A stretch of 64,000 nt of DNA from positions 1,798,001-1,862,000 of the forward strand of contig NZ_JAGP01000001.1 in the NCBI RefSeq assembly GCF_000526715.1. The letters run 5' to 3'. Origin of the DNA: Hydrogenovibrio kuenenii DSM 12350. GTDB taxonomy: Bacteria; Pseudomonadota; Gammaproteobacteria; Thiomicrospirales; Thiomicrospiraceae. Shown here one piece after another: positions 11,271 through 30,950 of the stretch. Position numbers and translations under genes: made by a program. Position 1 is the stretch's first letter, and every line of letters starts with the position of its first letter. Below the pieces are notes generated by a model. It was not told the DNA's origin. It saw only the letters and a program-made list of their open reading frames with translations, and did no database searches.

Positions 11271-11295
11271 TTTTTATAGTAAAAAGGACAAAATA

Positions 11296-11720: not shown

Positions 11721-11742
11721 CATATCAAAACATAGGTTATCA

Positions 11743-12693: not shown

Positions 12694-12714
12694 TAGAATT
12701 GAATACAAATGACA

Positions 12715-12757: not shown

Positions 12758-12796
12758 TTAAAACAATCATTAAAAATCAATAACTTACTTTATACT

Positions 12797-12859: not shown

Positions 12860-13053
12860 AAAACGCACCTTTATTTTTCACCTAAACCCAATAACCTCAA
12901 CCCTTTTCCTAAACACCTGTCAAATTAGAAAGTGCTTTGCACCTTCTCCAAGGTTTCTATTTCGTTTAACGTTAACGGAAAGTGAAAAAACTGCTTTTTT
13001 TGGATCATATAATTTTCTTAACAACTGATTAAAAAATTGAAAAGGATAAATAT

Positions 13054-13167
13054 ATGCAAAAATTAAAAAATACAGCGCTAGACATACAGTTCAAATTTGG
13101 TTGGAAAAATATTTTTTTCTGTTTAAATATCAAAAAATACTTTGAAACAAAAAATGTAGGTAATTGA
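13054..13167 (+). CDS. Small ORF upstream of CoiA-like gene (possible leader)
   Basis: 37 codons from the ATG at 13054 with AAAAGGATAAATAT in front, ending TGA at 13165-13167, five bases before the ATG of the CoiA-like gene. The peptide begins MQKLKNTALDIQFKFGW and is lysine- and phenylalanine-rich. It could be a leader that couples translation of the nuclease, a toxin-like peptide, or a chance frame. The good ribosome site and tight coupling favour expression. Confidence 0.4.
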   Translation: MQKLKNTALDIQFKFGWKNIFFCLNIKKYFETKNVGN

Positions 13168-13172
13168 AAGAG

Positions 13173-14270: not shown

Positions 14271-14286
14271 CTCAGGGATAAACAAC

Positions 14287-15342: not shown

Positions 15343-15418
15343 TTTTTTGGGGAGTAAATAGACTACTCGGTTTGTAACCGAGTGAACAATCTTTAATTTT
15401 CAATAGGTTAGAGATGGA

Positions 15419-15481
15419 TTCCCACAAAAGTTCCCACAATAGAGTACCTTTTGCTAATTTTTGTGGGAATTTCCCACAAAA
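15419..15481. repeat. Four TTCCCACAA repeats including a 23-base palindrome
   Basis: Direct copies begin at 15419 and 15431 (12-base period). A palindrome TTTTGTGGGAA-T-TTCCCACAAAA spans 15459-15481. The clustering beside the att core at 15560 and the matching pair inside the other att core suggest arm-type integrase binding sites. Confidence 0.6.
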
Positions 15482-15554
15482 TCTTGACTGATTTTAGACG
15501 TCAAAAAACGACTTGAGAACAAGCTTAATACATTGATTTTAAAGGGAAAATAAA

Positions 15555-15608
15555 TGGTGCGCCCGAAGGGAGTCGAACCCCTAACCGCTCGGTTCGTAGC
15601 CGAGTACT
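15555..15608 (-). repeat. 3' part of tRNA-Arg(ACG) including CCA, right att core
   Basis: On the minus strand this reads AGTACTCGGCTACGAACCGAG, the full anticodon stem-loop (anticodon ACG), then the T arm and acceptor strand ending GCGCACCA. The bases further right do not supply D arm or 5' acceptor sequence, so the gene is incomplete. Bases 15560-15602 are identical to 12715-12757. Together they bound a 2.9-kb unit. Confidence 0.85.
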
Positions 15609-15705
15609 TGTTACAAATATTTTTAGCGAGTTTTTGAAACTGCAGTTATTAATTGAATCTTCTATCTGACCTCTACAAATTAATATCAATTCGACAATAC
15701 TTCTC

Positions 15706-17064
15706 TTAGACAGCTACGTTTTTTTGTTTGTCTTTAGTATTAGGCGGCATATTCCTCGCCATAATTTCAAGAGCAGTTTTGGCTTGTGAGGGCGCAAGGT
15801 GACCATAGTGTTGTTCAATCATCTCCGTAGACTTGTGCCCAACCAGTTTGGCTACAGAAAACAGTGGAATTCCATTTTGAACCAGCTTAGAAATAAAATG
15901 GTGTCTCAGAGAGTAAAAATTCAAACTTTCATCTAAACCACCCAGTTTTTTTATGTTTTCCCAACCCGTCAAGTGAGCTTTTTTATCCATTCTAGCGCCA
16001 GCTCTAGGACTTGGAAAAACCAAACCAGTTGAAAGATTTCCTTGTTGCTCATTCCACTTTTTCATTATTTCAATAATTTCATTTGGAAGGGGTAAATCGA
16101 TCTGTATCGGTGATTGATTTGCCTTTGTATGATGTATTGTTTTTTCTGGATATTTAACAAGTCTTCCAAAGTCCAAATTGAGCTCATCCCAAGTGAGACC
16201 AAGTAAATCTCCAGAACGCATGCCAGTGAAATAAGCAAGATAAGTAAATGGGACTATCCAGTGACAATAGGTAAGTTTTTCAAACGATGGTAAGTCAGGC
16301 TTTCCATGCTTTATGGAACTTTTTCTTCGGTTTCTAACAACTTCATTATAGGAATCAATTCCTTTAAAAAGTGAACTGACCTCTTCATCAGTCAATATTC
16401 TTCTTTTCTTTTTATTATCTGCTTCAAACGATAATGCATCAGCCTTAGATTGCTTTAAAAGGAGTGATTTTTTAGGTAACGGATTTTTAGAAATAAACTC
16501 AGCTTCTTCTGCAAGATTAAGCACAGCTTTTAATGCTTGATAAGCTTTTAGTACAGTTGCATATTTAACTTCTTTTTCACGTTTAATTTGCCAAGATTGA
16601 ATATCCTGCTTGGTGATATCTTCCATGTTCATTTCGAACAAGTGCCCGAAATTTCTTCTCAAGATTGACAACACCTCTTTTGAAGTTTCATTTCGACTAA
16701 TATGATTGGCATAATAGCCATTCACAAAGGAGCCTAGGTTCTTTTGTTCTTCCAGTTGTTTATTACGAACAGCATACTTTTTTGTTAAGCGTTTTTGTTC
16801 TAAAGGGTCAACGCCACCAGCGATGATATCTATAGCCTTTTGAGCTGCTAAGGCAGGTTTAATTTCACTGAACTTTCCAATGGTAACATCTCTTCTTTTA
16901 CCAAAATCATCTTGATATCTCAGTCTGAAAGACACCCCATTTTTCATTCTTTTTGCATAAAAACCTGTGATTTTTGTGCAATAAATCTTGTCATGGACAG
17001 AAGAACTTCTTAAAAAGTCACCAATTTTCGACTCAGTTAAGCTTGTAACCGTTGGTTTAGCCAT
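15706..17064 (-). CDS. P4-type tyrosine integrase
   Basis: 452 residues. The N-terminal part (YCTKITGFYAKRMKNGVSFRLRYQDDFGKRRDVTIGKF... AAQKAIDIIAGGVDP) is the arm-binding domain (DUF4102-like) of P4/tRNA-island integrases. A core-binding domain spans about 110-200. The catalytic set is complete: R in FTGMRSGDL, K in HHTKAN, HxxR-type YSLRHHF, GHKSTEM and the nucleophile in EQHYGHL. It lies between a tRNA-Arg fragment 98 bases beyond its 3' end and a tRNA-Pro fragment 179 bases upstream of its start, so either tRNA could be its target. It is probably responsible for at least one of the islands here. Confidence 0.92.
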   Translation of the reverse strand: MAKPTVTSLTESKIGDFLRSSSVHDKIYCTKITGFYAKRMKNGVSFRLRYQDDFGKRRDVTIGKFSEIKPALAAQKAIDIIAGGVDPLEQKRLTKKYAVRNKQLEEQKNLGSFVNGYYANHISRNETSKEVLSILRRNFGHLFEMNMEDITKQDIQSWQIKREKEVKYATVLKAYQALKAVLNLAEEAEFISKNPLPKKSLLLKQSKADALSFEADNKKKRRILTDEEVSSLFKGIDSYNEVVRNRRKSSIKHGKPDLPSFEKLTYCHWIVPFTYLAYFTGMRSGDLLGLTWDELNLDFGRLVKYPEKTIHHTKANQSPIQIDLPLPNEIIEIMKKWNEQQGNLSTGLVFPSPRAGARMDKKAHLTGWENIKKLGGLDESLNFYSLRHHFISKLVQNGIPLFSVAKLVGHKSTEMIEQHYGHLAPSQAKTALEIMARNMPPNTKDKQKNVAV

Positions 17065-17242
17065 GTTTCACCCTCCAAAAAAAGTCGCCAAAAAGTCACC
17101 ATATGTTGACTTAAAACCAGGTAAAACACAATAAAACTTTTAAAAAGGAATGTGACAAAAAACAACGTATCTTGTTGATATTATGGGTATATATACACTA
17201 CACCTATAATTTTAGCAAATTCCAATATAGATGAAGAACGGA

Positions 17243-17290
17243 ATGGGGTGGCGGGGGTCGTAGGTTCAAATCCTACTGTCCCGACCAATT
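17243..17290 (+). repeat. 3' half of tRNA-Pro(GGG), left island repeat
   Basis: 48 bases, from the anticodon loop (ATGGGGT, anticodon GGG) through the T arm GTAGGTTCAAATCCTAC to CCCGACCA plus AATT. It is repeated at 29587-29634 with one mismatch. The upstream bases do not form the tRNA 5' half. Assignment to Pro(GGG) rests on the loop and on the acceptor strand, which implies a CGGGA start as in gammaproteobacterial tRNA-Pro. Confidence 0.85.
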
Positions 17291-17554
17291 ATTTCCAATA
17301 AAATCAACGGCATACAATTACGCCTAAATTTTTAATTTACTCTCCAAAACAGCCATTCCCTGCATAAAACCAACACACCCATACAGAAAAAACCTTTACA
17401 ATTCAACCAGTTAACTCAGACTCAACCTCTACAACAAAATCCTGAGCCAAGTTTTACGTGAATACCCCCGTCTTAGCATGGCGGGAGTCTAGAGCAACGC
17501 CAAGAAATTAAATAGCTAAATATCAACAACTTACAAAACACACATACAGTTTCA

Positions 17555-17594
17555 TTTGTTCTTAGTTGCTCCTGTTTGTTCTTAGTTGTTCCTA
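17555..17594 (+). repeat. Two tandem 20-base units
   Basis: TTTGTTCTTAGTTGCTCCTG is followed directly by TTTGTTCTTAGTTGTTCCTA (two mismatches). Function unknown. Confidence 0.7.
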
Positions 17595-17657
17595 AAAATT
17601 GCTACCTTACTGAGACCTCCAAAGTAAAATATCGTACGAAAGTGCATGAAAGCATTT

Positions 17658-17994
17658 AATCGCCACTAATTTACTAGACACTTCTTAGCCATTTTATAAT
17701 GGTTAAAAACGGTATTTTTTACGGTTTCAATAGGAACAAAACCTATAAATGTCTTTTAAAAACAATGTGTTACAAAAGGTGAATGGCGCGCCCGAAGAGC
17801 TATATTTATTGAATAATAAAAAAGTCTGTGCCTTGATTCACCAAGCTTTATGGATAAAGGACATTCAAGGTTTACATACATGGAAACAAACTTATGTGAA
17901 TTGTTCGACAAATTGATAACAGTTTAGCACTGCAATACCTAAAACACTCATTACTAATGAATAGCACAAAGTGTCTGGTAAATTAGTGGCGATT
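17658..17994. mobile_element. MITE-like element with 24-base inverted ends
   Basis: The left end AATCGCCACTAATTTACTAG (then ACAC) at 17658-17681 and the right end at 17971-17994 are inverted copies with one mismatch, 337 bases apart. No transposase gene lies between, so this is a MITE or a decayed IS. No clear target duplication is seen. Related end sequences occur at 11679-11720 and 29362-29405. Confidence 0.65.
17749..17916 (+). CDS. Doubtful 55-codon ORF inside the inverted-end element
   Basis: ATG 17749 to TGA 17914-17916; the peptide begins MSFKNNVLQKVNGAPEELY. AGGAAC lies upstream but with wide spacing. It may be a remnant of a transposase or a chance frame. It contains GGCGCGCCCGAAG, resembling the 3' end of the tRNA-Arg fragment. 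Confidence 0.2.
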   Translation: MSFKNNVLQKVNGAPEELYLLNNKKVCALIHQALWIKDIQGLHTWKQTYVNCSTN

Positions 17995-18059
17995 CACTGG
18001 TTAAATTGTTCTAAAGATGTGGTCACTTTTACGTGACGTGACCACTACAGTTTGCTTCA

Positions 18060-19067
18060 TTAATTTTTTGAATCACTTGGCTTATAGAGTCGTTCGGGTG
18101 CGGGAAAACCACAGCTGGTTCCATCTTTAACTCGAACAGCATCATCCCATGGCAGATTGTAGATTCCTTTGGTTATATCTGTCATGTAAGTATAGGGGCA
18201 ATCGGTTGCTCCGCCTTTTACGGCCACATATCCTCTATGGCCAAATTGGTAAATATTATTTTCAACTCCCCATGTAATTCTAGCTTCGTCAACTAAATCT
18301 GGTCGAACTTCTGCTGTAATAATTTCATCAGGTATGCTGTTTCCTTCAACGATTGAGGAACCATCAAAGTTAACAATCATGCCCTCGCCCATGGAGTTAA
18401 AAGTGTCATCTGAACCCGCAAGACAAACACTGGCGGTGACCATTAGATTGCAGAATGCATTGGCTTGATTGGTGATTTTCCAGCTGTGTTTGATAGGTGC
18501 GGTATAACCTGCCGTGCGAAGCATGACATTTGCGCCTTTGTAGGCGCATTCTCTAGCCATTTCAGGAAACATGCCATCGTGACAGATAATTAGAGCCAGT
18601 TTTGAACCATTGGGTCCGTCACAAACAGGAATACCTAGATCACCAGGCTCCCAGGGTTCAACCGGAACCCATGGGTGAAGTTTGCGATAAAAGAGTTTTA
18701 CTTCACCGCTGTCATCAATGATTAAGCCTGTGTTGTAGGGGTTGCCGTTAGGGTTGTATTCCATAATTGAAAAACAGCCCCATATTTTATTTTCACGACA
18801 AGCGCTTTGAAAGGCTTGTACTTCTGGACCATCGCGATGACACATAATTTCATCGCTGATATCCATTGAAAGTCCATGTAAGCAATATTCTGGAAACACA
18901 ACCAAATCCATTCTAGGCATTCGATTTCTTGCTTTACTGACCAATTCACAGACTTTTTGCGTTTCGTTTGCAAGGTCATTAGGTGTTTTAACGTTGGGGA
19001 GTTGTTTTTGAACGAGTCCAATTACAATTCCTTTGTCCGATTTATTAAGGCCGCCAAGTCCACTCAT
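18060..19067 (-). CDS. amiF: Formamidase
   Basis: 335 residues of the nitrilase superfamily, closest in my knowledge to Helicobacter AmiF (334 residues). It hydrolyses formamide to formate and ammonia. The catalytic triad is visible as E60 (FPEY), K129 (FYRKL) and C162 (IICHDGM). AmiF-type signatures include FSIMEYNPNGNPYNT, PWEPGDLGIPVCDGP and NIYQFGHRGYVAVKGG. The start ATG at 19067 follows AAGGAGATCAACCC. It is the last gene of the minus-strand metabolic cluster, after an alpha/beta hydrolase and a CodB-like permease. This points to formamide being released from an imported nitrogen compound. Confidence 0.92.
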   Translation of the reverse strand: MSGLGGLNKSDKGIVIGLVQKQLPNVKTPNDLANETQKVCELVSKARNRMPRMDLVVFPEYCLHGLSMDISDEIMCHRDGPEVQAFQSACRENKIWGCFSIMEYNPNGNPYNTGLIIDDSGEVKLFYRKLHPWVPVEPWEPGDLGIPVCDGPNGSKLALIICHDGMFPEMARECAYKGANVMLRTAGYTAPIKHSWKITNQANAFCNLMVTASVCLAGSDDTFNSMGEGMIVNFDGSSIVEGNSIPDEIITAEVRPDLVDEARITWGVENNIYQFGHRGYVAVKGGATDCPYTYMTDITKGIYNLPWDDAVRVKDGTSCGFPAPERLYKPSDSKN

Positions 19068-19105
19068 GGGTTGATCTCCTTGTAAATTTTTGAATTGTGC
19101 TTAGA

Positions 19106-19129
19106 AAGGGTGATTGAAAAATCACCCTT
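19106..19129. terminator. Hairpin between alpha/beta hydrolase gene and amiF
   Basis: AAGGGTGATT-GAAA-AATCACCCTT is a perfect 10-bp stem with a 4-base loop. There is no long T tract, so it may be an mRNA processing or stabilising stem, or a partial attenuator, rather than a full terminator. Confidence 0.5.
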
Positions 19130-19140
19130 GAGAAGTCAGA

Positions 19141-20154
19141 TTAACTCGCTAAAAGCTCTTTTAGCGCATCATCTATAAATGTAACATCTACACTGTTCAG
19201 CCCAGGGCCACCAGCGAAATGTCCCCAAACAGATGGGATTGGACGGAACTCAGCATTTGGCATTTTGCTAACTTCATACTCGTTATCTTCCGGAGGGAAG
19301 TATAAGTCAGTCGCACCAGGCATTACAATCGCCTTAGCCGTGATTGACCCCAAGGCTTTTTCAAAATCGCCTTCGTATATTGGGTTAGCACTGATGTCTC
19401 CATATTGCCATGTCCATAACATAGCCAATAGGTTGTTGGCATCACGATCCAAAAAGAATCCTTCCCAGAAGGCAACTAAGAAGTCTTCTAGCGATGAGTA
19501 GCCAAGCACTTTATATAACTCTTGACGATAGAATGGTTGAGAGAATCCCCAGCCTGCATAAACACGAGCCATTGCTCTAAGCCCTTTCGTTGGTGGTTTT
19601 TCATACCACCCATGTTCAAAAGCAGAATCAGCAGTTAGAGCAGACTTCACCCCTTCAAGAAAGACGAAGTTGTGTGGAGATGTTTTCGCAGAGCCACAGA
19701 AAGGCGCAATGCGTTCAACCATATCTGGGTATTGCGCACCCCATTGATAGGTTTGTTGAGCGCCCATTGACCAACCAGTAACAAGTGCAATTTTTCCAAT
19801 TCCAAATAACTCCGTAACCAACTTGTGCTGAGCGGTTACGTTATCAAATAGAGTTGTACCAGGGAAACGCGCCTTGTCGTAAGGTACTGGCATATTGCTC
19901 GGTGATGAAGACAGACCGTTGCCCAACATGTTGGGAATGATAATAAAGTATTTGTCTGGGTCTAAGGCCATGCCAGAGCCAATTAGCCACTCATTATCAT
20001 AGTGTTGTCCAGAATACCAAGTCGGATAAACGATGACATTGTCTTTAGCATCGTTTAACGTTCCAAACGTTTTGTATGCCAGCTTGGCATCTCTTAGAGT
20101 TGCCCCGCCTTGAATTACAAAGTCACCTAAGTTAAAAAATTTATAGTCTTGCAT
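19141..20154 (-). CDS. MetX-like alpha/beta fold hydrolase
   Basis: 337 residues related to homoserine acetyltransferase-like alpha/beta hydrolases. The nucleophile elbow is GWSMGAQQ (serine), the acid is in PGATDLYFPPEDN, and the histidine is in WGHFAGGPG. The N-terminal phrase LNDAKDNVIVYPTWYSGQHYDNEWLIGSGMALDPDKYFIIIPN is typical. The homoserine-binding features of true MetX are not obvious, so a hydrolase role is more likely. It lies between codB-like and amiF genes, 38 and 73 bases away, so it may cleave the imported compound and feed formamide to AmiF. This role is inferred. Confidence 0.8.
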   Translation of the reverse strand: MQDYKFFNLGDFVIQGGATLRDAKLAYKTFGTLNDAKDNVIVYPTWYSGQHYDNEWLIGSGMALDPDKYFIIIPNMLGNGLSSSPSNMPVPYDKARFPGTTLFDNVTAQHKLVTELFGIGKIALVTGWSMGAQQTYQWGAQYPDMVERIAPFCGSAKTSPHNFVFLEGVKSALTADSAFEHGWYEKPPTKGLRAMARVYAGWGFSQPFYRQELYKVLGYSSLEDFLVAFWEGFFLDRDANNLLAMLWTWQYGDISANPIYEGDFEKALGSITAKAIVMPGATDLYFPPEDNEYEVSKMPNAEFRPIPSVWGHFAGGPGLNSVDVTFIDDALKELLAS

Positions 20155-20192
20155 AATGATAAGTCTCCAAATTATTGCGTTAAATTCGTTTA

Positions 20193-21524
20193 TTACTTTT
20201 TCGTTGAAAGGCTTGAATCACTGCTTCGCGCCATAATTGCCAAGTAAGCCAATCCACCAATCACCGCTGAAGAAACAGCCGTAGATAATCCTGGGAAAGA
20301 TTTTTCAACAATAAACGCCGCAACTGAACCAATTGCCCAAGCAATAAATGCTTTCGGACGCCAGTCAGAATCAATTTCAGAATTTTTTCGTAACAAATAT
20401 TGGTCAACCAAAATGATGGCACCAATAGGAGGAACGATAATGCCCAGTAAACTTAACCATTGGATGAAGAACGCCCAAACGTTGGTAGCAGCAACAACGA
20501 TACCGATAGCACCAAGAACGATAGCTAACAAACGCATATGGCTTCCTAGAATTCTCGACCAGCCTGTTGCCGCGTTATAAAGACAATGTGAGCAAACAGA
20601 ACCTAGGTTTAAAAGTAGAAAAATAAAGGCAACAACGGCTAACCAACCGACGTTTTGTGCAACCATATAGCCAAACATATTATCTGAACCAAATGGGTTT
20701 GCATCAGGAACTGCCAATGCCGCTGTCATCACTCCACCCACGAGCATTGCAATCATGTTTGCAAATGGAAATGCGCTAAAAGTTGCGACAAGAGAGCTTT
20801 TTGAGTCTTTAGCCCAGCGATTGAAGTCTCCCGTTACGGTTCCTGCATCAACAAACAGTGCGATAACCATGGTAAGGCCAATGCCAAACGCCATAGGAAC
20901 ATCAGGGTGATTACCAGGATAAGCTACGATTTTCGCCCATGTCGTCGTGCTAGCAGCATCAAAAGCGACCCATAATCCAAGAATGACGAAAAGCGGTGCC
21001 GAAATCATTCCTATCCAATGAAGGCCACGAACCCCTAAAAAGGTAATTGAGATATACAAAACACCTGCAATGATGGTCATCATCACATAGTTAATTTCAT
21101 AAGCGCTGTGTATCAATGCCCCTGTAATCCCTGTCTGTACAGCAAACCAACCCAAAAGCAATGTTGACAAGAGCCCCGAAGCCAGTACATAACCTTTTTT
21201 ACCAAAAACAATACTGGCTAAAAGTGCAAAGTTATACCCTTTTTTAGTTCCGATAAGCCCTAAGCCACCTACATACAAAAACATGAGTAGATTACCAATA
21301 ATCATCGCCCATAGTGCATCAACAAATCCCATACCCATTACAAGTAATGAGCCTGTCATAGCACCAGTGATAATCATCGGAAATCCAACCCAAACCATAC
21401 TGACCGAGAACATGCTTCGTCTTGCTTTCGCAGGTACGGCACAATGTTCATATTCTTCTCCGAGGACGTGGTCGACCTCTCCTTCTATATGCTCAATAGC
21501 AGTTTCATGTTTTGAACCTGGCAT
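20193..21524 (-). CDS. NCS1-family cytosine/purine permease (CodB-like)
   Basis: 443 residues with about 12 membrane segments. The N-terminal cytoplasmic stretch ends VPAKARRSMFSVSMVWVGFPMIITGA, and KKGYNFALLASIVFGKKGY, DAGTVTGDFNRWAKD and SVCSHCLYNAATGWSRIL match CodB-type nucleobase:cation symporters. Members import cytosine, hydantoins, allantoin or related heterocycles. The substrate here is unknown; the neighbouring formamidase argues for a nitrogen-rich compound. It heads the codB-hydrolase-amiF transcript, with a 352-base upstream gap likely holding its promoter. AAGGAGATAAAGGT precedes the ATG. Confidence 0.88.
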   Translation of the reverse strand: MPGSKHETAIEHIEGEVDHVLGEEYEHCAVPAKARRSMFSVSMVWVGFPMIITGAMTGSLLVMGMGFVDALWAMIIGNLLMFLYVGGLGLIGTKKGYNFALLASIVFGKKGYVLASGLLSTLLLGWFAVQTGITGALIHSAYEINYVMMTIIAGVLYISITFLGVRGLHWIGMISAPLFVILGLWVAFDAASTTTWAKIVAYPGNHPDVPMAFGIGLTMVIALFVDAGTVTGDFNRWAKDSKSSLVATFSAFPFANMIAMLVGGVMTAALAVPDANPFGSDNMFGYMVAQNVGWLAVVAFIFLLLNLGSVCSHCLYNAATGWSRILGSHMRLLAIVLGAIGIVVAATNVWAFFIQWLSLLGIIVPPIGAIILVDQYLLRKNSEIDSDWRPKAFIAWAIGSVAAFIVEKSFPGLSTAVSSAVIGGLAYLAIMARSSDSSLSTKK

Positions 21525-21876
21525 ACCTTTATCTCCTTAAAGAAATCACATTTATTACTTTGGTTTTTAAAACCACATAAAGAAAAAGAACCGCCATTGG
21601 TTATACAAAACACCTTTCAATGCGTTACTACTTTGTAACTAAATGAGTTTTTTATGTGTACTTACTGACTAGTTAACAATTCAAACGATAAGAACGCTAT
21701 CGGTATCACTATTCACTAAAATTTTTATCGATACTTACTACAAATTACACACAACACCACTTGGTGAAGTTTGTGATTTAACTGACTACTTCGAGTCATC
21801 AAAACTGAAAAAACTCTGTTTATCGAGAACTAAAATAATTAAACTCCTCCTACTCAAAAAACAAACACATATGCAT
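21525..21876. promoter_or_regulatory. Upstream region of codB-like gene
   Basis: 352 non-coding bases between the TSUP gene end and the permease start. A CACCA-CT-TGGTG inverted repeat lies at 21755-21766. No sigma-54 (GG-N10-GC) element was found on the minus strand. It probably carries the promoter of the codB-hydrolase-amiF unit. Confidence 0.4.
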
Positions 21877-22689
21877 TTAGAGTCCAACGGACTGCAAAAA
21901 CATTTTTATACTGACCAAAAAAAGCATTACCGCAAAAACTTTTTTTAATGCCGTTGCATTTAATTTTTGTGCAAGTCGAACCCCAACCGGAGCAAACAAA
22001 ACGGTTAATGGAACAATGGTTAAAAAACTAGGGAAATTAACAAAGCCATATGTTCCGACTGGGCTACCCACTGGAGTGGTTCCGAGAAATAACATAATTA
22101 ACGACCCCGGTAAGGCAATAATTAATCCAAATGCTGACGCTGTACCAACGGCTCTATGCATCACGAAATTGAACTTCGATAAAGTGGGAACCCCTAAAGT
22201 TCCTCCACCAATGCCAATCATCACTGGCAAAAAACCAAGCAAACTGGCAATGATTTTTTGTGTTTTTGGACTCGGTAACTTTACCTGACCGCTTTGCTTT
22301 TTATTCAGTAGCATTTTTACTGAAACCCCGCCAGCGATTAACGCGAACAGCATCACAAATAATGCGCTATTAATTTTAGAGGTTAATGCTGCCCCCAAAA
22401 TGACCCCTAAACAAATCCACAGCCACCATTGCCGAATCAAGTTCCAATCCACATTTCCTCTAAGGTTGTGTGCGCGTATCGAGCTAATCGATGTTGGCAC
22501 AATAGTAGCCAACGATGTTCCTGTTGCGAGGCTCATCGCCTCAACACTTCCCATACCTAGAGACTGAAACACAAAATAGAGTACTGGGACAATAACGATA
22601 CCGCCTCCAACACCTAATAAACCGGCCAATATCCCAGAGGCTGCTCCAGTTATTACCAGTGCTAAAAATAATTCCGAATATTCAACCAT
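21877..22689 (-). CDS. TSUP-family (TauE/SafE) anion exporter/permease
   Basis: 270 residues with about 8 membrane segments and the family motif GLLGVGGGIVIVPVLYF in the first helix pair, repeated in degenerate form as GIGGGTLGVPTL in the second half. TSUP proteins move sulfite, sulfoacetate or other organic anions. It starts 1 base after the stop of the gamma-glutamyltransferase-like gene and is co-transcribed with it. It may export an acidic end product of the pathway such as oxamate or a sulfonate; this is a guess. Confidence 0.85.
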   Translation of the reverse strand: MVEYSELFLALVITGAASGILAGLLGVGGGIVIVPVLYFVFQSLGMGSVEAMSLATGTSLATIVPTSISSIRAHNLRGNVDWNLIRQWWLWICLGVILGAALTSKINSALFVMLFALIAGGVSVKMLLNKKQSGQVKLPSPKTQKIIASLLGFLPVMIGIGGGTLGVPTLSKFNFVMHRAVGTASAFGLIIALPGSLIMLFLGTTPVGSPVGTYGFVNFPSFLTIVPLTVLFAPVGVRLAQKLNATALKKVFAVMLFLVSIKMFLQSVGL

Positions 22690-22690
22690 T

Positions 22691-24265
22691 TCAAATATTC
22701 ACGCTATATGATTGGCCGTCACTTCTAGGATCTGAAGCGGCTTCAATGTCTCCGGAAACATCCAACACCAGCATGCCCGCATGCCCCATCATTTCGGAAT
22801 AATCTGCAACGCTCTCAACATCATGGCCTTTTGCCTGAAAAGCATCGTCCAATCTTTCATACAGTGATTTCTCAAGTTTGAGGTTATTTTGAGAATTTCC
22901 CCACGTTCGCCCAAGTAACCATCTTGGTTCGGCCACTGCTGCCTTAGGAGATAATCCATCATAAACATAACGGCTCAAAATAGCTGCTTGGGTTTGAGGC
23001 TGACCTTCTCCCCCCATCGTGCCATATACCATTCTGCGGCCATCGTTAAACTGACACATCGCAGGATTCAAGGTATGAAAGGGTTTCAATTTAGGTGACA
23101 ACGCATTTAGGTTCGACGCATCCAAACTGAAGCCGACACCTCGATTGTTCCACACCAATCCATATTCAGGAACGGTAACACCGCTTCCAAACTCCCAATA
23201 AAGACTCTGGATATAACTGACCATCACACCATGTTGGTCAATAGCTCCCATCCAAACTGTGTCGCCAGGTTGTGCAACATAAGGCCAAGGTAAGGCATTC
23301 TCTGCGTTCACTTTTTGGCTCAACTCGCTTAAAAAATCATCAGTCAGATAGTTAGGCAAGCTGTCCGGCAATCTCTGTGGATCGGTTATCAACTGGTCAC
23401 GCAGCATAAAAGCTTGTTTGGTGCACTCAATCAGGTGATGAATTTTTTGCTCTTCATTCCAATCAGTTTGGTAAAGCCGATCATAGAGTCCGATAATAAT
23501 TAATGAGGCCAAACCCTGAGTCGGTGCCCCGAGGTTATAGAGTGTGCCAAAAGAAGTCTCACAAGTAAGCACTTCCATTGTGTCGGCTCGGTAATCGTGC
23601 AAATCCTTTAAACAAACAGGGCTACCTGCTGTTTTGAGTGCCATAGCAATGTTGTCTGCAACTTCACCTTGATAAAAATCTAACAATCCATTTTTCGCGA
23701 GTTTTTTCAATAAGCGAGCCTGCCCAGGCTGCTTAAAAATTTGCCCTTTTTTCAAAGGCTGTCGATCATTCAGAAACGCTTCTTCATAACCAATCACACA
23801 AAGTAATTCTGACAATTTGCTATCAGAAGCTTGGGCTAGCGTTTCTGTAACCTCGATACCTTGTTCGGCAAACCGAACAGCCTCTTCAAATAGCTGTTCA
23901 AGGTTTGCCTGCGTACCTATGTTTTCGGTTGCCCAAGCCAATGCATGATGCCAACCTGAAACCGCACCAGCAACAGTCAATGCCGCTCTTCCACCTCGGC
24001 TAGGAAGTTGATTTTCATCTTTATAGAAATCGAGTGTTGCTGCTTGAGCAGAACAACCCGAAGCATCTATCGCATAAGGCGCTTCTCCCGGCTTCTGAAT
24101 CAACCAAAAGCCATCTCCACCCATGCCAGTCATATGGGGATAAAGTACAGAAATACTTGCAGCGGCAGCGACCATCGCTTCAACTGCCGATCCACCTTGC
24201 TGTAGAATCTTTAAACCTGTTTGACTGGCTAAATCATGCGGTGCTGTAAATGCGACTTGAACCAC
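22691..24265 (-). CDS. Gamma-glutamyltransferase-family amidohydrolase (HpxW-like)
   Basis: 524 residues of the Ntn-hydrolase GGT family. N-terminal signature TAPHDLASQTGLKILQQGGSAVEAMVAAAA and HMTGMGGDGFW. The self-processing/nucleophile threonine is in PGDTVWMGAIDQHGVMVSY, and GSGVTVPEYGLVWNNRG and YGTMGGEGQPQTQ follow. No signal peptide is present, so it is cytoplasmic, unlike Ggt. VYPHMTG(M/L)GGDGFWLI resembles oxamate amidohydrolase HpxW and related proteins, which release ammonia from oxamate. In this island it sits with RidA, an SDR and an ABC importer. Substrate uncertain; glutathione breakdown seems less likely. Confidence 0.8.
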   Translation of the reverse strand: MVQVAFTAPHDLASQTGLKILQQGGSAVEAMVAAAASISVLYPHMTGMGGDGFWLIQKPGEAPYAIDASGCSAQAATLDFYKDENQLPSRGGRAALTVAGAVSGWHHALAWATENIGTQANLEQLFEEAVRFAEQGIEVTETLAQASDSKLSELLCVIGYEEAFLNDRQPLKKGQIFKQPGQARLLKKLAKNGLLDFYQGEVADNIAMALKTAGSPVCLKDLHDYRADTMEVLTCETSFGTLYNLGAPTQGLASLIIIGLYDRLYQTDWNEEQKIHHLIECTKQAFMLRDQLITDPQRLPDSLPNYLTDDFLSELSQKVNAENALPWPYVAQPGDTVWMGAIDQHGVMVSYIQSLYWEFGSGVTVPEYGLVWNNRGVGFSLDASNLNALSPKLKPFHTLNPAMCQFNDGRRMVYGTMGGEGQPQTQAAILSRYVYDGLSPKAAVAEPRWLLGRTWGNSQNNLKLEKSLYERLDDAFQAKGHDVESVADYSEMMGHAGMLVLDVSGDIEAASDPRSDGQSYSVNI

Positions 24266-24413
24266 TATTATTCCTTATTGATTAGTTTGCAAAAGCACCT
24301 AAACAACTTCTTTTCTTTAGCCGAGCGTTAATAAGCCAAAGTTAACTTCATACTTAAAACCTATCTAAAATAGGATTTCCCTAGCACTACTTTTTCTTGT
24401 AACCGCAGACAAA

Positions 24414-24809
24414 TTAATTTTTTCGAACCATCAAATCGATTTCAACCAATGCCTGACAAGCCAACCCCGTTACGCCCACACAAGTTCTTGCTGGCAGCTT
24501 CCCTTCCGGAAAATAGCTTTTATAAACCTGATTCATCAAAGCATAATCTCTCTCAAATTCTGTGATGTATACTCGTGAATTGACCACTCTATCAAGCCCA
24601 AGTCCTAGCCCATTTAAAACAATGACAAGGTTATCCATAACCCTACGTGTTTGCGCCTCAATACCTTCTGGTAAAGGCGCCTCGGGGTCATCTGGAAATG
24701 TTGGCATTTGCCCCGTGATCATAACCCAACCATCTACTTCTACCGCATGACTAAACGGAGCCACGGGCGTAGGTGCTTCCTTAACCATATGAAATATCAA
24801 TTCACTCAT
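24414..24809 (-). CDS. RidA/YjgF/UK114-family protein
   Basis: 131 residues from ATG 24809 (GGAGAAAGAA in front). An upstream TTG start is unlikely because it would consume the ribosome site. Family signatures: VMITGQMP (around residue 32), RRVMDNLVIVLNGLGLGLDRVVNSRVYITE, and the conserved arginine and C-terminal ARTCVGVTGLACQALVEID. RidA members deaminate enamine/imine intermediates, and some (RutC) act in pyrimidine catabolism. Located between the ABC ATPase and GGT-like genes, it probably clears a reactive intermediate of the island pathway. Confidence 0.9.
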   Translation of the reverse strand: MSELIFHMVKEAPTPVAPFSHAVEVDGWVMITGQMPTFPDDPEAPLPEGIEAQTRRVMDNLVIVLNGLGLGLDRVVNSRVYITEFERDYALMNQVYKSYFPEGKLPARTCVGVTGLACQALVEIDLMVRKN

Positions 24810-24853
24810 TTCTTTCTCCAAATACTTTGTAAACTTAAATTAATTTAAAGCGA

Positions 24854-25702
24854 CTAAGAGTCGTTCTTACGCAGACTGGTCAATCGCATCAATTTGTCCA
24901 GGTTAGAATTGACGCCTGATGTCTCCCGTATTCGATGCAATATCGTATTTTTTAATTCCAAAAACTCCGGATGGTTTTTCACATCCTGACTTCGCTCGCT
25001 TCCGCCAGGTAAACTGATATCGTAGATGCTGTCTATTCTTCCTGGGTTAGGAGCCATAACAACCACCCTATCTGCTAGATAAATTGCTTCCTCCACATCA
25101 TGAGTTACAAAAACAATCGTACTTTTTTCTATTTCAAACAGATGCAAAATAAGGTCATGCATGACCTCTCTTGTCTGCGCATCCAGGGCACCGAAAGGCT
25201 CGTCCATTAACAGCACGTCCGGTTTTGACATCAAAGCTCGTGCGATAGCAACCCTTTGTCTCATCCCCCCTGAAAGTTGATTTGGGTGGCTATCTTGAAC
25301 TTTTTCCAGTCCCATAAGGTCCAGCAAAGCGTATGACCTATCGACCATAGACCCAATATCCCCCAGTCCATTCCCTTGACCGTTGATCTTAAGGTTTCTA
25401 CTGAACTGAATGTTTTCTTTGACCGTCAGCCATGGATAAAGGCTATAGTCCTGAAAGACCATGGCCCTATCCTTGCCTGGTTTATTGACAATTTCCTCAT
25501 CAACTAAAACCTGCCCTTTTGTTAATTTTTCAAGACCGCCTATGATCCGAAGAAGCGTCGACTTCCCACAACCGGAAGCACCAACCAGTGCAACAAATTC
25601 ATTTTCTTTAACCGTCAAATCTATGCTTTCCAGAACTTCTACCGCACCTTTTTTAGTGATGAACGTCTTATTTAGCCCACTGATTATTATCTTATCGTTC
25701 AT
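24854..25702 (-). CDS. ABC transporter ATPase (SsuB/TauB/ThiZ type)
   Basis: 282 residues from ATG 25702; the longer frame begins inside the upstream permease gene. Walker A GASGCGKST (41-49), Q loop FQDYSLYPW, signature LSGGMRQRVAIARAL and Walker B VLLMDEPFGALD are intact. Belongs to the nitrate/sulfonate/pyrimidine ABC importer group. It follows the permease stop by 10 bases and powers uptake with the permease and the binding protein at 27507. Confidence 0.92.
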   Translation of the reverse strand: MNDKIIISGLNKTFITKKGAVEVLESIDLTVKENEFVALVGASGCGKSTLLRIIGGLEKLTKGQVLVDEEIVNKPGKDRAMVFQDYSLYPWLTVKENIQFSRNLKINGQGNGLGDIGSMVDRSYALLDLMGLEKVQDSHPNQLSGGMRQRVAIARALMSKPDVLLMDEPFGALDAQTREVMHDLILHLFEIEKSTIVFVTHDVEEAIYLADRVVVMAPNPGRIDSIYDISLPGGSERSQDVKNHPEFLELKNTILHRIRETSGVNSNLDKLMRLTSLRKNDS

Positions 25703-25712
25703 ATTAAAACCT

Positions 25713-26558
25713 TTAGTGGTAAAGCCATGGGAAAGCACGGCGATGAATAAAACGAAACAACTGATCCATAGCTAAACCGATGACACCAATCAGCAATATC
25801 CCAACAAAAATTTTGTCCGTTTGTAAAAAACGTTGAGCTTTTAGAATTGCATAACCTAGCCCAGAGTTAGCCGCCACCATTTCAGCCACGACCAAATATG
25901 TCCAAGCCCATCCGAGCGTCACTCTCAAGGTATCTAAAATAGCAGGCATTGCGGACTTTAATATCACTAAATTCAGTATCTCACCCTGGCTCGCCCCCAT
26001 GGTTTGTCCGGCCTCTATCTGAGCCATTGGAACGCGCCTGATATCTTCCGAAATCATCAAAATCATCTGGAAAAACGTCCCTATCCAAATAATTGTTATT
26101 TTCCCTCCCTCATCAATTCCGACCCATAGCAGAACTAAAGGTACAAATGCCACTGCCGGCATATACCTTGCAAACTCAATGATCGGTTCAAAAAAAGCCT
26201 GAACTGGGCGATAGGAACCTATAAACAAACCTAAAGGAATAGCGATTGCAGCAGAAATGAGAAAACCGGAAGTCACTCTAAACATACTAATCAACGTATC
26301 ATTGATTAAGTCACCTTCACTAAACCAAGATGCCATCCTTGCAATAACATCACCGGGGCTAGGCAAAAAAATCTTATTGAAAACGCCCAGTTCTGACAGT
26401 ACTTCCCAAGTACCAAAAAAAAGAATAAAGCTAACAAAAACGATACTTAAATAGAGACTTTGATCTAAATCTCCCCGTATCCGCCAAACAGCATTTCTTA
26501 CACAATTATTTGTCTCTTCTTTAGCATTTTGCTGTAACTTTTTTCTAAATGGCCACAT
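25713..26558 (-). CDS. ABC transporter permease (SsuC/TauC/ThiX type)
   Basis: 281 residues. A hydrophobic N-terminal helix (about 36-54) and five more helices are visible. The coupling motif region EAGQTMGASQGEILNLVILKSAMPAILDTLRVTLGWAW fits the EAA loop of BPD_transp_1 permeases. Partner of the ATPase directly downstream and of the SBP upstream; the SDR gene is inserted between permease and SBP. Substrate unknown, but the group covers sulfonates, nitrate and pyrimidines. Confidence 0.92.
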   Translation of the reverse strand: MWPFRKKLQQNAKEETNNCVRNAVWRIRGDLDQSLYLSIVFVSFILFFGTWEVLSELGVFNKIFLPSPGDVIARMASWFSEGDLINDTLISMFRVTSGFLISAAIAIPLGLFIGSYRPVQAFFEPIIEFARYMPAVAFVPLVLLWVGIDEGGKITIIWIGTFFQMILMISEDIRRVPMAQIEAGQTMGASQGEILNLVILKSAMPAILDTLRVTLGWAWTYLVVAEMVAANSGLGYAILKAQRFLQTDKIFVGILLIGVIGLAMDQLFRFIHRRAFPWLYH

Positions 26559-26730
26559 ATCTATTTACCTAACATTAAATAGCTCTTACAACATCGACAA
26601 ATAACTAAACCCAAGTCTTTCAATTTAATGTCTAATCGCACAACATCAAATCTTCAAATCGATTTTGCCTTTAAACTCACAAACAAAAGTTCTACGATTA
26701 AAAGCCGCCCAAACATAGGGCAGCTCTTAC

Positions 26731-27507
26731 CTACATAAGCGTCTTGCCACCATCCGCCATAATAGATGCCCCTTGAATAAAGGAGGCATCATCCGTTGAT
26801 AAAAATAACGCGACCTTTGCTATTTCATCTGGCGTTCCCAATCGACCTAACGGAATCGTTGACACTGCCTCACTCCGAGAAGCCTTTGGGTCAGAAAAAT
26901 GCTCAAACTCTGCATTTAACATTGGTGTTTCAACAGGACCAGGGCAAAGAATATTCACCCTAATCCCATCCAATGCCACCTCCAATGCAAGAGAGCGTGA
27001 AAAAGAAACCACAGCCCCCTTTGAAGCGCAATAGGCCGAAAAATCCGGTTGTGCGACAAATGCCAACTCAGATGCCACATTGATCACCACACCCTTCTTT
27101 TGCTCCTTCATAATAGGAACAACTAGCTTACACAGTCGATAGGAAGCTAAAAAATTAACGCCCAAGGTATCTAGCAACAGCTTTTCATCGGTCTCTTCAA
27201 TCGAGGCAACCTTTGAAATACCTGCCACATTACACAAGATATCTACATGACTTTCCTTGGATTGAACCATCTCAACCCACTCTTCAATTGAATTCCCATC
27301 CAGTAAATTCACTTCATGGAAAACGAAAGAGCCTGCTGAGCCTTTAAGCTCAGTCTCCATAGCCCTTCCTTCTTCAACGCCGATATCTGCGCCATAAACC
27401 TTGGCTCCATTCCAAGCGAATAATTTAGCTATTGCTTGACCTATTCCACTACTCGTCCCTGTGACTAGTGCTGTTAGGCCGACAAGTTTTAAATCATTCG
27501 CCTGCAT
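26731..27507 (-). CDS. Short-chain dehydrogenase/reductase (SDR)
   Basis: 258 residues. Cofactor motif TGTSSGIG (16-23), D in GADIG (suggesting NAD preference), CNVAG (NNAG-like), catalytic S in INVASELAF and YCASK, plus the ILCPGPVETPM motif. A classical SDR acting on a hydroxyl or carbonyl group. The ATG at 27507 overlaps the stop of the binding-protein gene (TAATG), so coupled translation is likely. Its place between transporter genes suggests it acts on the imported compound; exact substrate unknown. Confidence 0.9.
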   Translation of the reverse strand: MQANDLKLVGLTALVTGTSSGIGQAIAKLFAWNGAKVYGADIGVEEGRAMETELKGSAGSFVFHEVNLLDGNSIEEWVEMVQSKESHVDILCNVAGISKVASIEETDEKLLLDTLGVNFLASYRLCKLVVPIMKEQKKGVVINVASELAFVAQPDFSAYCASKGAVVSFSRSLALEVALDGIRVNILCPGPVETPMLNAEFEHFSDPKASRSEAVSTIPLGRLGTPDEIAKVALFLSTDDASFIQGASIMADGGKTLM

Positions 27508-28559
27508 TATTTACCGCCCTTTACGAAGGATGAATCAATCACACTTGAGGAGGTCACCGACTCAGATATTAGTTTTTGCTCTAGCATGAACTTATTCATA
27601 TCTGAAACTGTTTTGTAATAAGGCCCTTGTTTAGAAGGCGTGCCTAATGCAGCGACATTATCTTCTCTGCTATACATTCTGACACCTTCCCACATTTCTT
27701 TGAATTCCTTCACCGAAACATCAGAAGCCTTCGCCATAATTTTATAAGCATCATCAGGGTTAGTTTTAATGTAATCCAAAGCATCAAACCACGCATTCAA
27801 TACACGCTTGACATCTTCACTTCTGTTTTTAGCAGTTTCATCACTGACAGCCAATACATCCACAATTGCGTTCGGAGTATCTTTACTTGTCGCTAAAAAC
27901 TTACCGCCAGACTTGATGGCCTGAGAGCCGTAGGGTTCCCACGTTACAGCCGCGTCAACAGTTTTTGCTAAAAATGCGCTTCCCGCATCGGCAGCACCCA
28001 TATTTAAAAGCTGCACATCCTTTGGAGACACCCCATTTTTTTCAAGCACTGTATTCAAGAAAAAGTTACTAACCCCACCGACCTCTAAAGCGATTTTTTT
28101 CCCTTTCAGGTCTTTAACACTATCAATGTTTCTTGTGACCAGCATGTCCGCGCCATAAGACTCATCATTCAAAAGAACAATCTTTGTCCCAACGCCTTTA
28201 GCTGCAATCGACACTATGTCGTTCGTTGCTAATGAACAGGCATCCAAGTGACCTGAAGCAAGTGCCGTCATTGAGTTCGCCTGCACTCCAAAAAAGACCA
28301 GCTTTGCATTCGCATGATTTTTCTCAAGCAGCCCTTTCTCCTTTACAATCCACCACGGCATCCAACCAACCCAAATATTTACACCAACCTTTAATGGGTC
28401 TTTAGAAGAAGCATATGACGGACTCTGCTGAGCAAACAGCACGGCTACCAACATCATAAATACTGCTTTTTTTCTACCATTACGCATATATGAAAAAATT
28501 TTATTCAGCGGATTAGAAAACACTCTTTTGAGTGTTGCATTTCTAGATATTGTTTTCAC
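27507..28559 (-). CDS. ABC substrate-binding protein (NMT1/SsuA/TauA type)
   Basis: 350 residues. An unusually long basic N-terminus (about 30 residues) precedes a signal-type hydrophobic stretch (VFMMLVAVLFAQQSPSYA, cut after about residue 51). A later start near residue 25 is possible. The mature part, VGVNIWVGWMPWWIVKEKGLLEK and ASGHLDACSLATNDIVSIAAKG, is characteristic of NMT1/THI5-like periplasmic binding proteins for sulfonates or pyrimidines. First gene of the minus-strand uptake operon and divergent from the Lrp-type regulator, which likely controls it. Confidence 0.9.
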   Translation of the reverse strand: MKTISRNATLKRVFSNPLNKIFSYMRNGRKKAVFMMLVAVLFAQQSPSYASSKDPLKVGVNIWVGWMPWWIVKEKGLLEKNHANAKLVFFGVQANSMTALASGHLDACSLATNDIVSIAAKGVGTKIVLLNDESYGADMLVTRNIDSVKDLKGKKIALEVGGVSNFFLNTVLEKNGVSPKDVQLLNMGAADAGSAFLAKTVDAAVTWEPYGSQAIKSGGKFLATSKDTPNAIVDVLAVSDETAKNRSEDVKRVLNAWFDALDYIKTNPDDAYKIMAKASDVSVKEFKEMWEGVRMYSREDNVAALGTPSKQGPYYKTVSDMNKFMLEQKLISESVTSSSVIDSSFVKGGK

Positions 28560-28895
28560 TGTCGAAACCTCTATGTAATAAAGTTATTTGTAAACCACCT
28601 CATCACCAACGATAGCAAGTAGAGTGCCAAAGAACAACACCACTATAAACGATTGTTTTTTATACAATTATTAAAAATACAACCTTAAAGTTCACGGGAT
28701 AGAAAGATTAATGCACCAAATTAAATTTTCACTAAAAACGCACCAAATAAACAAAAACATTCATTATTTGTTTACAATGTATACAATAAAATTTTATTAT
28801 CAGCAGATTCATCATTTACAGCTATAGCATTAGCTAATTTTATGTGCATTTGTATATTTTTTATATTGCACCAAAAAGTGCAAAAAGAGGCCTAT
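28560..28895. promoter_or_regulatory. Divergent control region with GCACCAAA repeats
   Basis: 336 non-coding bases. The 9-base direct motif (T/C)GCACCAAA occurs at 28712, 28739 and 28867. The last copy is also part of the palindrome TTGCAC-CAAAAA-GTGCAA (28866-28883), just upstream of the regulator's ribosome site. The pattern fits an autoregulated Lrp-type regulator that also controls the divergent transporter operon. Confidence 0.55.
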
Positions 28896-29339
28896 ATGAA
28901 TAAAGACAATCAGATCATCGAATTATTGGTTACGGACGGGAGATTATCTTTTGCTGACATCGCAAGAGAAATAGGTGTTTCAAGAGCATTTGCTCGACAA
29001 AAAGTCCAAAAACTTCTTGATGATGGAATCATTGAGCAATTTACCGCTGTAATAAATCCTTTTAAATATGGTAAATCGTTATCTGCCTTTCTTGATGTGA
29101 AAGTTGCCCCACTAGCAATTGAAGAAATTGCCAACCAACTAGCATCATGCCCAGAAGTTATTAGCCTGTACATAATGAGTGATATGAAAAGTTTGCATAT
29201 TCACACCCTTACCGATGATCAAGAAGGACTAACAGAATTTGCTCACAAATGGCTATTTTCTAGAGAAGGCATTTTAGAAGTTGATTGCAAAACTTTACTA
29301 AAACGTGTCAAAAATCGACGAGGAGGGCCAAGGCTCTAA
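28896..29339 (+). CDS. Lrp/AsnC-family transcriptional regulator
   Basis: 147 residues from ATG 28896 behind AAAGAGGCCTAT; the frame upstream lacks a ribosome site. Residues 1-50 are an AsnC-type winged helix (DNQIIELLVTDGRLSFADIAREIGVSRAFARQKVQKLLDDGII), and residues 60-135 a RAM-like ligand domain (LSAFLDVKVAPLAIEEIANQLASCPEVISLYIMS). The C-terminal tail is basic (KRVKNRRGGPRL). Divergent from the ABC/SDR/RidA/GGT operon, so it is the probable pathway regulator responding to an amino-acid-like or amine ligand. Confidence 0.88.
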   Translation: MNKDNQIIELLVTDGRLSFADIAREIGVSRAFARQKVQKLLDDGIIEQFTAVINPFKYGKSLSAFLDVKVAPLAIEEIANQLASCPEVISLYIMSDMKSLHIHTLTDDQEGLTEFAHKWLFSREGILEVDCKTLLKRVKNRRGGPRL

Positions 29340-29361
29340 ACTTAACAAAACTGATAACTGT

Positions 29362-29405
29362 AAATTCCACAAATTTACTAGACACTTCTTAGTCATTTCA
29401 TAATA
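29362..29405 (-). repeat. Dispersed inverted-end repeat copy
   Basis: TTTACTAGACACTTCTTAG is shared exactly with 17670-17688, and the flanks are partly conserved (TCATTTCATAATA against CCATTTTATAATG). It lies just inside the right island boundary, mirroring the element near the left boundary. Confidence 0.7.
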
Positions 29406-29586
29406 GTCAAATAAGAGGTGTTAAACGATAAGTAAACGCCACCTAGAAAATTAAAAATTTAGTAAAAAAGATATAACAAAACAAGCTTATCCGATTTCTG
29501 AAAAAAATCACAAAGAAACCTATAACAAATTGTTTTTAAAGGGAATTAAAAATAATGGCCTAGTAAAAAAACCTCACGAACAGTCT

Positions 29587-29634
29587 ATGGGGTGGCGGGG
29601 GTCGTAGGTTCAAATCCTACTATCCCGACCAATT
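29587..29634 (+). repeat. 3' half of tRNA-Pro(GGG), right island repeat
   Basis: 47 of 48 bases match 17243-17290 (G to A in the acceptor strand). Same orientation, so the pair forms direct repeats around a 12.4-kb segment. It is likely the attR boundary with core chromosome on its right. Confidence 0.85.
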
Positions 29635-30358: not shown

Positions 30359-30919
30359 TTAACCTGAAAAATGTGCATCCAATCCTTCACAAATCAAATG
30401 ATTTAGAAACGTATGGGCTTCTTGAATACGAGCCGTTTGTTTGGAATGGATAGGGAAACAGTAGTCAGCTGTTTTAAGTAATGGAGAATCCTTACTGCCA
30501 ATCAAAGCGATGGTTAAACAGCCTTTTTCTTGCGCGACTTCCATGCCTTTTAAGATGTTTGCACTCGTACCTGAAGTACTGATGCCAATCACCACATCAC
30601 CAGGACGGGCAAGCGCGTCAATTTGACGGGAAAAAATGGTTTCGAATTCAAAGTCATTCGAATGCGCAGTCAACAGCGAACTATCGGTAGTTAACGCAAT
30701 GGAAGCTAGGGGTTGACGGTTAATCACATAACGCACCATTAGCTCGGCTGCCATGTGTTGCGCTTCAGCAGCACTACCACCATTACCCATCCAAAGCACT
30801 TTAGCGCCCGATTCAAGTGCCTCGATAATTTTTTGCACCACTTCTTCAAGGGTGTCGGCTGCATTTAATACCGATTCAATCGCTTTAACATGCTCTTGAT
30901 GCGCGGCTTCGATATTCAT
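30359..30919 (-). CDS. gmhA: Sedoheptulose 7-phosphate isomerase (GmhA/DiaA-type SIS protein)
   Basis: 186 residues from ATG 30919 (AAAGAGGAATAAC ahead). It has a single SIS domain: WMGNGGSAAEAQHMAAELMVRY, TTDSSLLTAHSNDFEFETIFSRQIDALARPGDVVIGISTSGTSANI and AHTFLNHLICEGLD. GmhA makes D-glycero-D-manno-heptose 7-phosphate, the first step to the LPS inner-core heptose. DiaA is a close relative in sequence, but placement right after hldE (start inside a 32-base gap) supports GmhA. Confidence 0.88.
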   Translation of the reverse strand: MNIEAAHQEHVKAIESVLNAADTLEEVVQKIIEALESGAKVLWMGNGGSAAEAQHMAAELMVRYVINRQPLASIALTTDSSLLTAHSNDFEFETIFSRQIDALARPGDVVIGISTSGTSANILKGMEVAQEKGCLTIALIGSKDSPLLKTADYCFPIHSKQTARIQEAHTFLNHLICEGLDAHFSG

Positions 30920-30950
30920 GTTATTCCTCTTTATCATTAAATGAAGGCTT

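Follow-up and report, generated by a model that had tools for sequence, protein, structure and literature searches.

Islands stacked in tandem behind a tRNA gene and islands without an integrase of their own are both already known. The ssrA islands of Dehalococcoides lie in tandem, and 15 of 31 carry no integration module and were proposed to be mobilizable in cis (PMC3146451). Here we describe a 64,000-nt stretch of the marine sulfur bacterium Hydrogenovibrio kuenenii DSM 12350 (the window, C1:1798001-1862000 of a 2.45-Mb genome), in which a 12.3-kb metabolic island is bounded by 3′ copies of tRNA-Pro(GGG) and adjoins a 27.8-kb island that encodes its own integrase. Within a tandem tRNA-Pro array, the 12.3-kb unit is very probably the older island, without an integrase and by now largely fixed. 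This single locus illustrates how nutrient genes are gained by a chemolithoautotroph, with unrelated islands stacked at one tRNA gene; the inner of them appears to have lost, or never had, the means of leaving.

The 12.3-kb island is flanked by direct repeats of 48 nt that differ at a single base, repeat position 36, and consist of nt 33-77 of tRNA-Pro(GGG), its last 45 nt, plus three bases common to both copies, two of which are also present after the intact gene. Over 47 nt the first copy has no mismatch to the intact gene and the second has one, the mismatched copy being the one nearest the core side and farthest from the intact tRNA-Pro. These repeats had been reported in a preliminary description of the DNA as lacking the 5′ half of the tRNA, and that half is indeed absent from both; ARAGORN found no tRNA in the window and an Rfam search gave no match. 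The conserved 31 nt occur at three places in the genome, all on one strand, when up to three mismatches are allowed, and the reversed control gave none. The best chance similarity in two shuffles of the region was 24/45 and 26/45, against an observed 44-45. The same description had predicted an intact tRNA-Pro to the left of the window and a second tandem island from the window start to 17243, and we found both: the intact gene (C1:1787335-1787411) is 10.59 kb to the left of the first base of the window and is followed by the integrase-bearing island. The order is tRNA-Pro, the 27,831-bp island, a tRNA copy, the 12,299-bp island, a tRNA copy, and the chromosome side that begins with two genes we take to be gmhA and hldE. 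The further claim that core genes start right after the last repeat holds from gmhA onward and fails for the ~0.7 kb before it, which include an ORF (29832-30206) and give no blastn alignment with the relatives G003 or G008.

A match to tRNA-Pro is present in every one of the 11 genus genomes, and three of them have extra 3′ copies, namely this genome, G003 and G008. Both relatives share the two flanks of our locus, and in both the DNA enclosed by the tRNA and its copy is unrelated (18,060 bp in G003 and 6,386 bp in G008, each insert ended by a tRNA-Pro copy), and therefore the region is not core DNA, in agreement with its earlier designation as an island. Neither insert shares anything with our two islands by tblastx at E<=1e-4, nor do the two islands share anything with each other, and the sole similarity involving these inserts is between G003 and G008, mostly on IS3-type DNA. 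In G009 the flanks are present with a diverged tRNA-Pro(GGG) and without an island, leaving ~1.8 kb before gmhA. At the corresponding site, G003, G008 and G009 lack the 12.3-kb region or have other DNA instead, and in the remaining seven genomes the distance from tRNA-Pro to hldE is at least 52 kb (five genomes) or the two lie on separate contigs (G006 and G007).

We found no integrase in the 12.3-kb island by Pfam in ten of its 11 main ORFs or by NCBIfam in the eleventh, a short-chain dehydrogenase/reductase (SDR) gene, nor by a six-frame PF00589 search, and tblastn with ten integrases at E<=1 detected no remnant there, so that an integrase inside this unit was rejected by Pfam, six-frame and tblastn searches. 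Across the whole genome PF00589 matched at four places, comprising two presumed XerC/XerD genes, the integrase of the 27.8-kb neighbour and a weak second match in that same island, and besides the presumed XerC/XerD only the integrase at 15706-17064 exceeded the cut-off. The start of its uninterrupted ORF is ~180 bp away from the right-hand tRNA copy.

An identical 25 nt made of two repeats spaced 11 nt (AAAAAGTCGCC and AAAAAGTCACC) occurs at both ends of the 27.8-kb island, the left occurrence ~55 bp inside its left end. We read these paired repeats as putative arm-type sites to which the integrase would bind, because related integrase loci also adjoin such pairs. In a sample of ten loci (our own, eight of the bacterial family and one of the class), an 11-nt-spaced pair lies 14-81 nt upstream of the matched integrase start in nine. 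The pair sequences differ between most loci, L153 and L154 being alike and L155 and L156 being alike. Slightly past the pair lies the 3′ half of a tRNA, which is tRNA-Pro in our genome, tRNA-Val-like in five loci (anticodon by eye) and tRNA-His in three, and one locus has a tRNA-like 3′ end to which we assigned no tRNA type. At L150-L157, integrases of this bacterial family adjoin varied 11-nt-spaced pairs together with tRNA-Val-like or tRNA-His 3′ halves.

Paired 11/12-nt repeats were found at all six ends of the neighbour, G003 and G008 islands and at neither end of the 12.3-kb island; background windows contained a pair in 21 of 466 cases (200 bp) and 24 of 310 (300 bp), under a criterion fixed only after the island ends had been inspected. 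The left end of the G003 island qualifies through one pair, whose sequence is unlike that of the right-end pair. A shared-word test between ends gave the 27.8-kb island a score of 34 against a shuffle maximum of 15, and it is the only island to beat its shuffles. As an independent check, the G008 pair, GCTGACA-N4/5-GCTGACA, has exactly two occurrences in the 11 genomes, one at each end of its island. The two ends of the 12.3-kb island yielded no arm pairs, those of the neighbour included. TTAGTTG occurs twice at the left end of this island with 20-nt spacing, which we did not count as arms, and its first 345 bp have no match elsewhere in the 11 genomes.

Both outer parts of the 12.3-kb island carry relics of insertion sequences (IS) that, from their end sequences, are presumably of the IS3 family. 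The left relic is a patchwork that encloses a 3′ scrap of tRNA-Arg (~17783-17797, by eye) and also holds sequence overlapping or adjoining a tRNA-Arg copy in G003. The same IS3-like end is found at 11678-11718, within the 27.8-kb neighbour. From these relics it seems that the 12.3-kb island has had its outer ends remodelled. Such remodelling could account for the lack of arm pairs, and the relics leave room for the cargo to have entered through them.

We propose that an older element entered at tRNA-Pro, that insertion sequences would then have remodelled it, with loss of its integrase and arms, and that the 27.8-kb element with its own integrase would later have entered the restored tRNA and pushed the older island away by tandem accretion. 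The 12.3-kb island would now be probably fixed, since it has neither an integrase nor paired arm repeats at its ends, or movable only by recombination between tRNA copies. We infer this order of arrival and the immobility of the inner unit; the mismatch in the tRNA copy farthest from the gene fits the order and is no proof of it. Several observations weigh against this account. No relative was found in which the 12.3-kb island occupies the site by itself, which would have shown the order directly; GC content is close between the island (41.0%) and the right-hand part of the window (42.5%); the ~0.7 kb beyond the last tRNA copy are, like the island, not common to G003 and G008; the shared-word test was not above shuffles for three islands (G008, 15 with a maximum of 16; G003, 11 with 16; the 12.3-kb island, 16 with 16); and the missing arm pairs could reflect ends that are no longer those of the original element.

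The similar GC content is also what ordinary core DNA with chance tRNA-like repeats would give, but relatives with the same flanks lack the 12.3-kb region and the repeat similarity is far above that of the shuffles, which together rule this explanation out for all practical purposes. Under a further reading, which is unlikely, the 12.3-kb island would still work as an element mobilizable in cis, and the neighbour's integrase would recombine the outer tRNA-Pro sites and move both islands or the inner one. The core sites are near-identical over 47-48 nt at all three positions, the integrase ORF next door is uninterrupted and the Dehalococcoides islands offer a precedent; however, neither end of the inner unit yielded the arm repeats of its neighbour, and as arm pairs vary among most related integrases, this one may not recognise other ends. 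The insertion sequences suggest another route, by which IS3-family transposition, or homologous recombination between IS relics, would have put the cargo into a much smaller and older tRNA-Pro remnant, so that the tRNA copies would bound the remnant rather than the element that delivered the cargo. Relics of matching orientation do bracket all the main cargo ORFs, and the left one has the tRNA-Arg scrap and the sequence next to or overlapping a tRNA-Arg copy in G003. Yet no transposase is present among the 11 main ORFs, the relics are partial ends, the left one a patchwork of 353 bp, where an IS3-type composite transposon would have two complete insertion sequences with transposase, and the same end also occurs inside the neighbour; we consider this route rather improbable, if a little less so than mobilization in cis.

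A broader reading, which we offer tentatively as possible and still well short of probable, is that a class of non-autonomous islands uses the tRNA-Pro locus, being moved in trans by the integrase of a visiting element and then orphaned, the 12.3-kb island being the oldest stage with its arms lost. Of the four tRNA-Pro islands in three related species, three lack an integrase, and the G003 and G008 islands among them retain, at both ends, paired 11/12-nt repeats like those beside this integrase family. That both relatives' islands are without an integrase and yet have arm pairs is less expected. Candidates for a helper integrase were inspected at five non-Xer places in G003 and at one locus (two hits) in G008, and no integrase with the G008 pair was found in the 11 genomes. 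The right-end pair of the G003 island, GTAGCA-N5-GTAGCA, occurs at exactly two places in G003 and at none in our genome, G008 or the reversed control. One place is the right end of the tRNA-Pro island and the other is position 500057 (L186, G003:C1:497500-501000), just upstream of a relative of the integrase (25-29% identity) that is broken by a stop codon and adjoins a tRNA-Met-like 3′ end (by eye). The related pair beside this integrase therefore indicates that an integrase with related arms did visit G003, at another tRNA. The left pair of the G003 island (GGTCACA) does not match the L186 pair, and the core target of L186 also differs, and we regard L186 as a trace that may be of a helper, a lead rather than proof. 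If islands of this class were moved in trans, the arm pair would be a signature of integrase-less mobile islands that are overlooked by finders requiring an integrase, and the 11-nt pairs beside this integrase family may aid their recognition. We claim no priority for the arm-pair pattern.

As separate observations on the relatives, the islands at tRNA-Pro in G003 (L032/L033; 18.1 kb) and G008 (L034; 6.4 kb) carry defence-like genes, with PDC-M30A-like, PDC-M70A-like and dGTPase-like matches among three scanned proteins. The tRNA-Pro(GGG) of G009 (L041:5573-5649) is only ~73% identical to that of the other ten genus genomes, which may reflect replacement of the gene.

The cargo of the 12.3-kb island comprises 11 main ORFs, all open from start to stop and all but the Lrp regulator on the minus strand (Table 1). 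The segments VFPEY, YRKLHPW and ICHDG of the formamidase, which we take to be its E/K/C motifs, align with PDB 5g3o. An AmiF-type formamidase (E<=1e-60) occurs in one of the 11 genus genomes, our own, and in 4 of 62 genomes of the family, the other three belonging to genus g5 (two of them named Thiomicrorhabdus). The formamidase, MetX-like and NCS1 permease genes (module A) are 84-92% identical at the protein level to those of these three genomes, in which the same 3.4 kb lie at two different places; ARAGORN found no tRNA-Pro in the 40-44 kb around module A there, where tRNA-Pro 3′ copies were not sought, and in G046 a tRNA-Met adjoins it. In Kushneria and Domibacillus an NCS1-formamidase pair lies beside a biuret amidohydrolase (above cut-off), with an allophanate hydrolase also near in Kushneria, which points to nitrogen scavenging from small amides. 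Among the best 80 of at least 590 formamidase loci, an NCS1 permease was near in 5 and a MetX-like gene in 2; ABC ATPase matches at 41 of the 80 were mostly generic, at ~30% identity, and we did not take them as support.

The gamma-glutamyltransferase has PDB 5hft as its best match, the two chains of which meet at query residues 335/336. It was found in 12 of 274 genomes including our own, and in the 11 others TauE was near in four and Lrp in three; the three genes (module B) recur in other Gammaproteobacteria. Two such clusters that we read have a TRAP transporter in place of the ABC transporter (the binding protein identified by NCBIfam in G144, and by reading in G328). No conserved block joining the ABC, RidA and SDR genes to the gamma-glutamyltransferase was found in other genomes, which weighs against a single pathway. 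The cargo combines at least two modules of separate origin, and its gene families suggest that it probably serves the inducible uptake and breakdown of small amides and of gamma-glutamyl or sulfonate-like compounds for nitrogen, the substrates being deduced from sequence. A literature search on the whole gene set found nothing relevant, and one on NCS1 permease and formamidase gave no paper on the gene pair among the matches listed; a search on formamidase in Hydrogenovibrio led no further.

Table 1. Features of the tRNA-Pro(GGG) array and its right flank (window coordinates).
Feature	Position	Strand	Basis or remark
27.8-kb island, right-hand 17.2 kb	1..17242		left end and intact tRNA-Pro beyond window
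Tyrosine integrase of 27.8-kb island (Phage_integrase and arm DNA-binding domain)	15706..17064	-	domain search
Paired 11-nt putative arm-type repeats (AAAAAGTCGCC / AAAAAGTCACC)	17078..17102	+	end comparison
tRNA-Pro(GGG) 3′ part, first copy	17243..17290	+	47 nt identical to intact tRNA-Pro region; right end of 27.8-kb island and left end of 12.3-kb island
IS3-like relic, 353 bp, inverted ends (34 nt, 88%)	17650..18002		end comparison
Formamidase (AmiF type)	18060..19067	-	NF009803, 572 bits vs cut-off 406; PDB 5g3o, 2dyu
MetX-like alpha/beta hydrolase, PRK07581 subfamily	19141..20154	-	570 bits vs cut-off 332
NCS1 family permease, CodB/CytX-like	20193..21524	-	Pfam above, NCBIfam below cut-off
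TauE/SafE family permease	21877..22689	-	Pfam
Gamma-glutamyltransferase family protein	22691..24265	-	Pfam above cut-off; TIGR00066 below, 294 vs 358
RidA-family protein	24414..24821	-	Pfam above, TIGR00004 below cut-off
ABC transporter ATPase (nitrate/taurine/sulfonate type)	24854..25738	-	NCBIfam models below cut-off
ABC transporter permease (TauC/SsuC-like)	25713..26558	-	Pfam; NCBIfam models below cut-off
SDR	26731..27507	-	NCBIfam
Substrate-binding protein, SsuA family	27507..28559	-	TIGR01728, 192.8 bits vs cut-off 163.5; PDB 2x26
Lrp/AsnC-type regulator	28842..29339	+	Pfam, NCBIfam
Second IS3-like end relic	29367..29411	+	same orientation as 17663-17707, 89%
tRNA-Pro(GGG) 3′ part, second copy, one mismatch	29587..29634	+	right end of 12.3-kb island
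gmhA-like and hldE-like genes, first conserved core genes rightward	30359..32366	-	shared with relatives

The 27.8-kb neighbour contains type I restriction-modification genes, two recombinase-like genes and, from reading its translation, a polymerase V-like gene; three direct repeats starting TTTTTTACACCAAA lie at 7916-8011, in the stretch that separates the polymerase V-like gene from the second recombinase-like gene. Two 3′ fragments of tRNA-Arg(ACG) on the minus strand (12701-12757 and 15546-15602, anticodon by eye) enclose a nested 2.8-kb unit in this island, with CoiA-like and HNH (type IV-like) genes, no integrase, and TTCCCACAA repeats close to both inner ends. By the arm-pair criterion this unit gave 0 at its left end and 5 at its right end, and a third, close-matching copy of the tRNA-Arg(ACG) fragment lies far off at C1:821088. 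Elsewhere in the window, a dispersed repeat with the core CCAGCCTGG(T/C)AGATTTT occurs in both orientations between 35470 and 58754, and at 41504-41556 it forms a near-perfect hairpin.

Set against described classes of islands, the 12.3-kb unit shares features with several. A tRNA-targeted island in the Islander sense, as worded in PMC4383910 and PMC6501319, has a tRNA gene and a displaced 3′ fragment of it, and both are present here, the left end of the unit being itself a displaced copy while the intact gene heads the array; the integrase belonging to that definition is found in the 27.8-kb unit and is lacking in the 12.3-kb one. Elements of the cis-mobilizable kind (CIMEs), as defined in PMC3146451, resemble it in their attachment-site-like flanking repeats, in having no integration or transfer genes among the ORFs (transfer genes were sought here by Pfam and NCBIfam only) and in the adjacent integrase element. 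We saw no sign that the neighbour's integrase can use the ends of the 12.3-kb island, where the core sites are shared and arm pairs were not found. Tycheposons and additive flexible islands have a tRNA at one end, a tyrosine recombinase in the case of tycheposons, and nitrogen-related cargo, and additive islands also have tRNA 3′-end repeats along the array (PMC10872708), whereas the 12.3-kb island itself has no recombinase. The Hydrogenovibrio strains SP-41 and XCL-2, of the same probable genus, also have strain-specific islands, and SP-41 is reported to have a formamidase (EC 3.5.1.49) in a region with a urease cluster, although the main text of that account does not mention tRNA-Pro (PMC6501319). 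The ssrA islands of Dehalococcoides appear to be the nearest published parallel among the systems compared. They differ in having a serine recombinase at the gene-proximal end and a tmRNA target, whereas in our array the enzyme is a tyrosine integrase, encoded at the distal end of the neighbour, and tRNA-Pro is the target, but in both cases several unrelated islands stand in tandem behind one tRNA or tRNA-like gene with displaced 3′ repeats and metabolic cargo, and the vcr islands of Dehalococcoides are, at ~12 kb, of similar size (PMC3146451).

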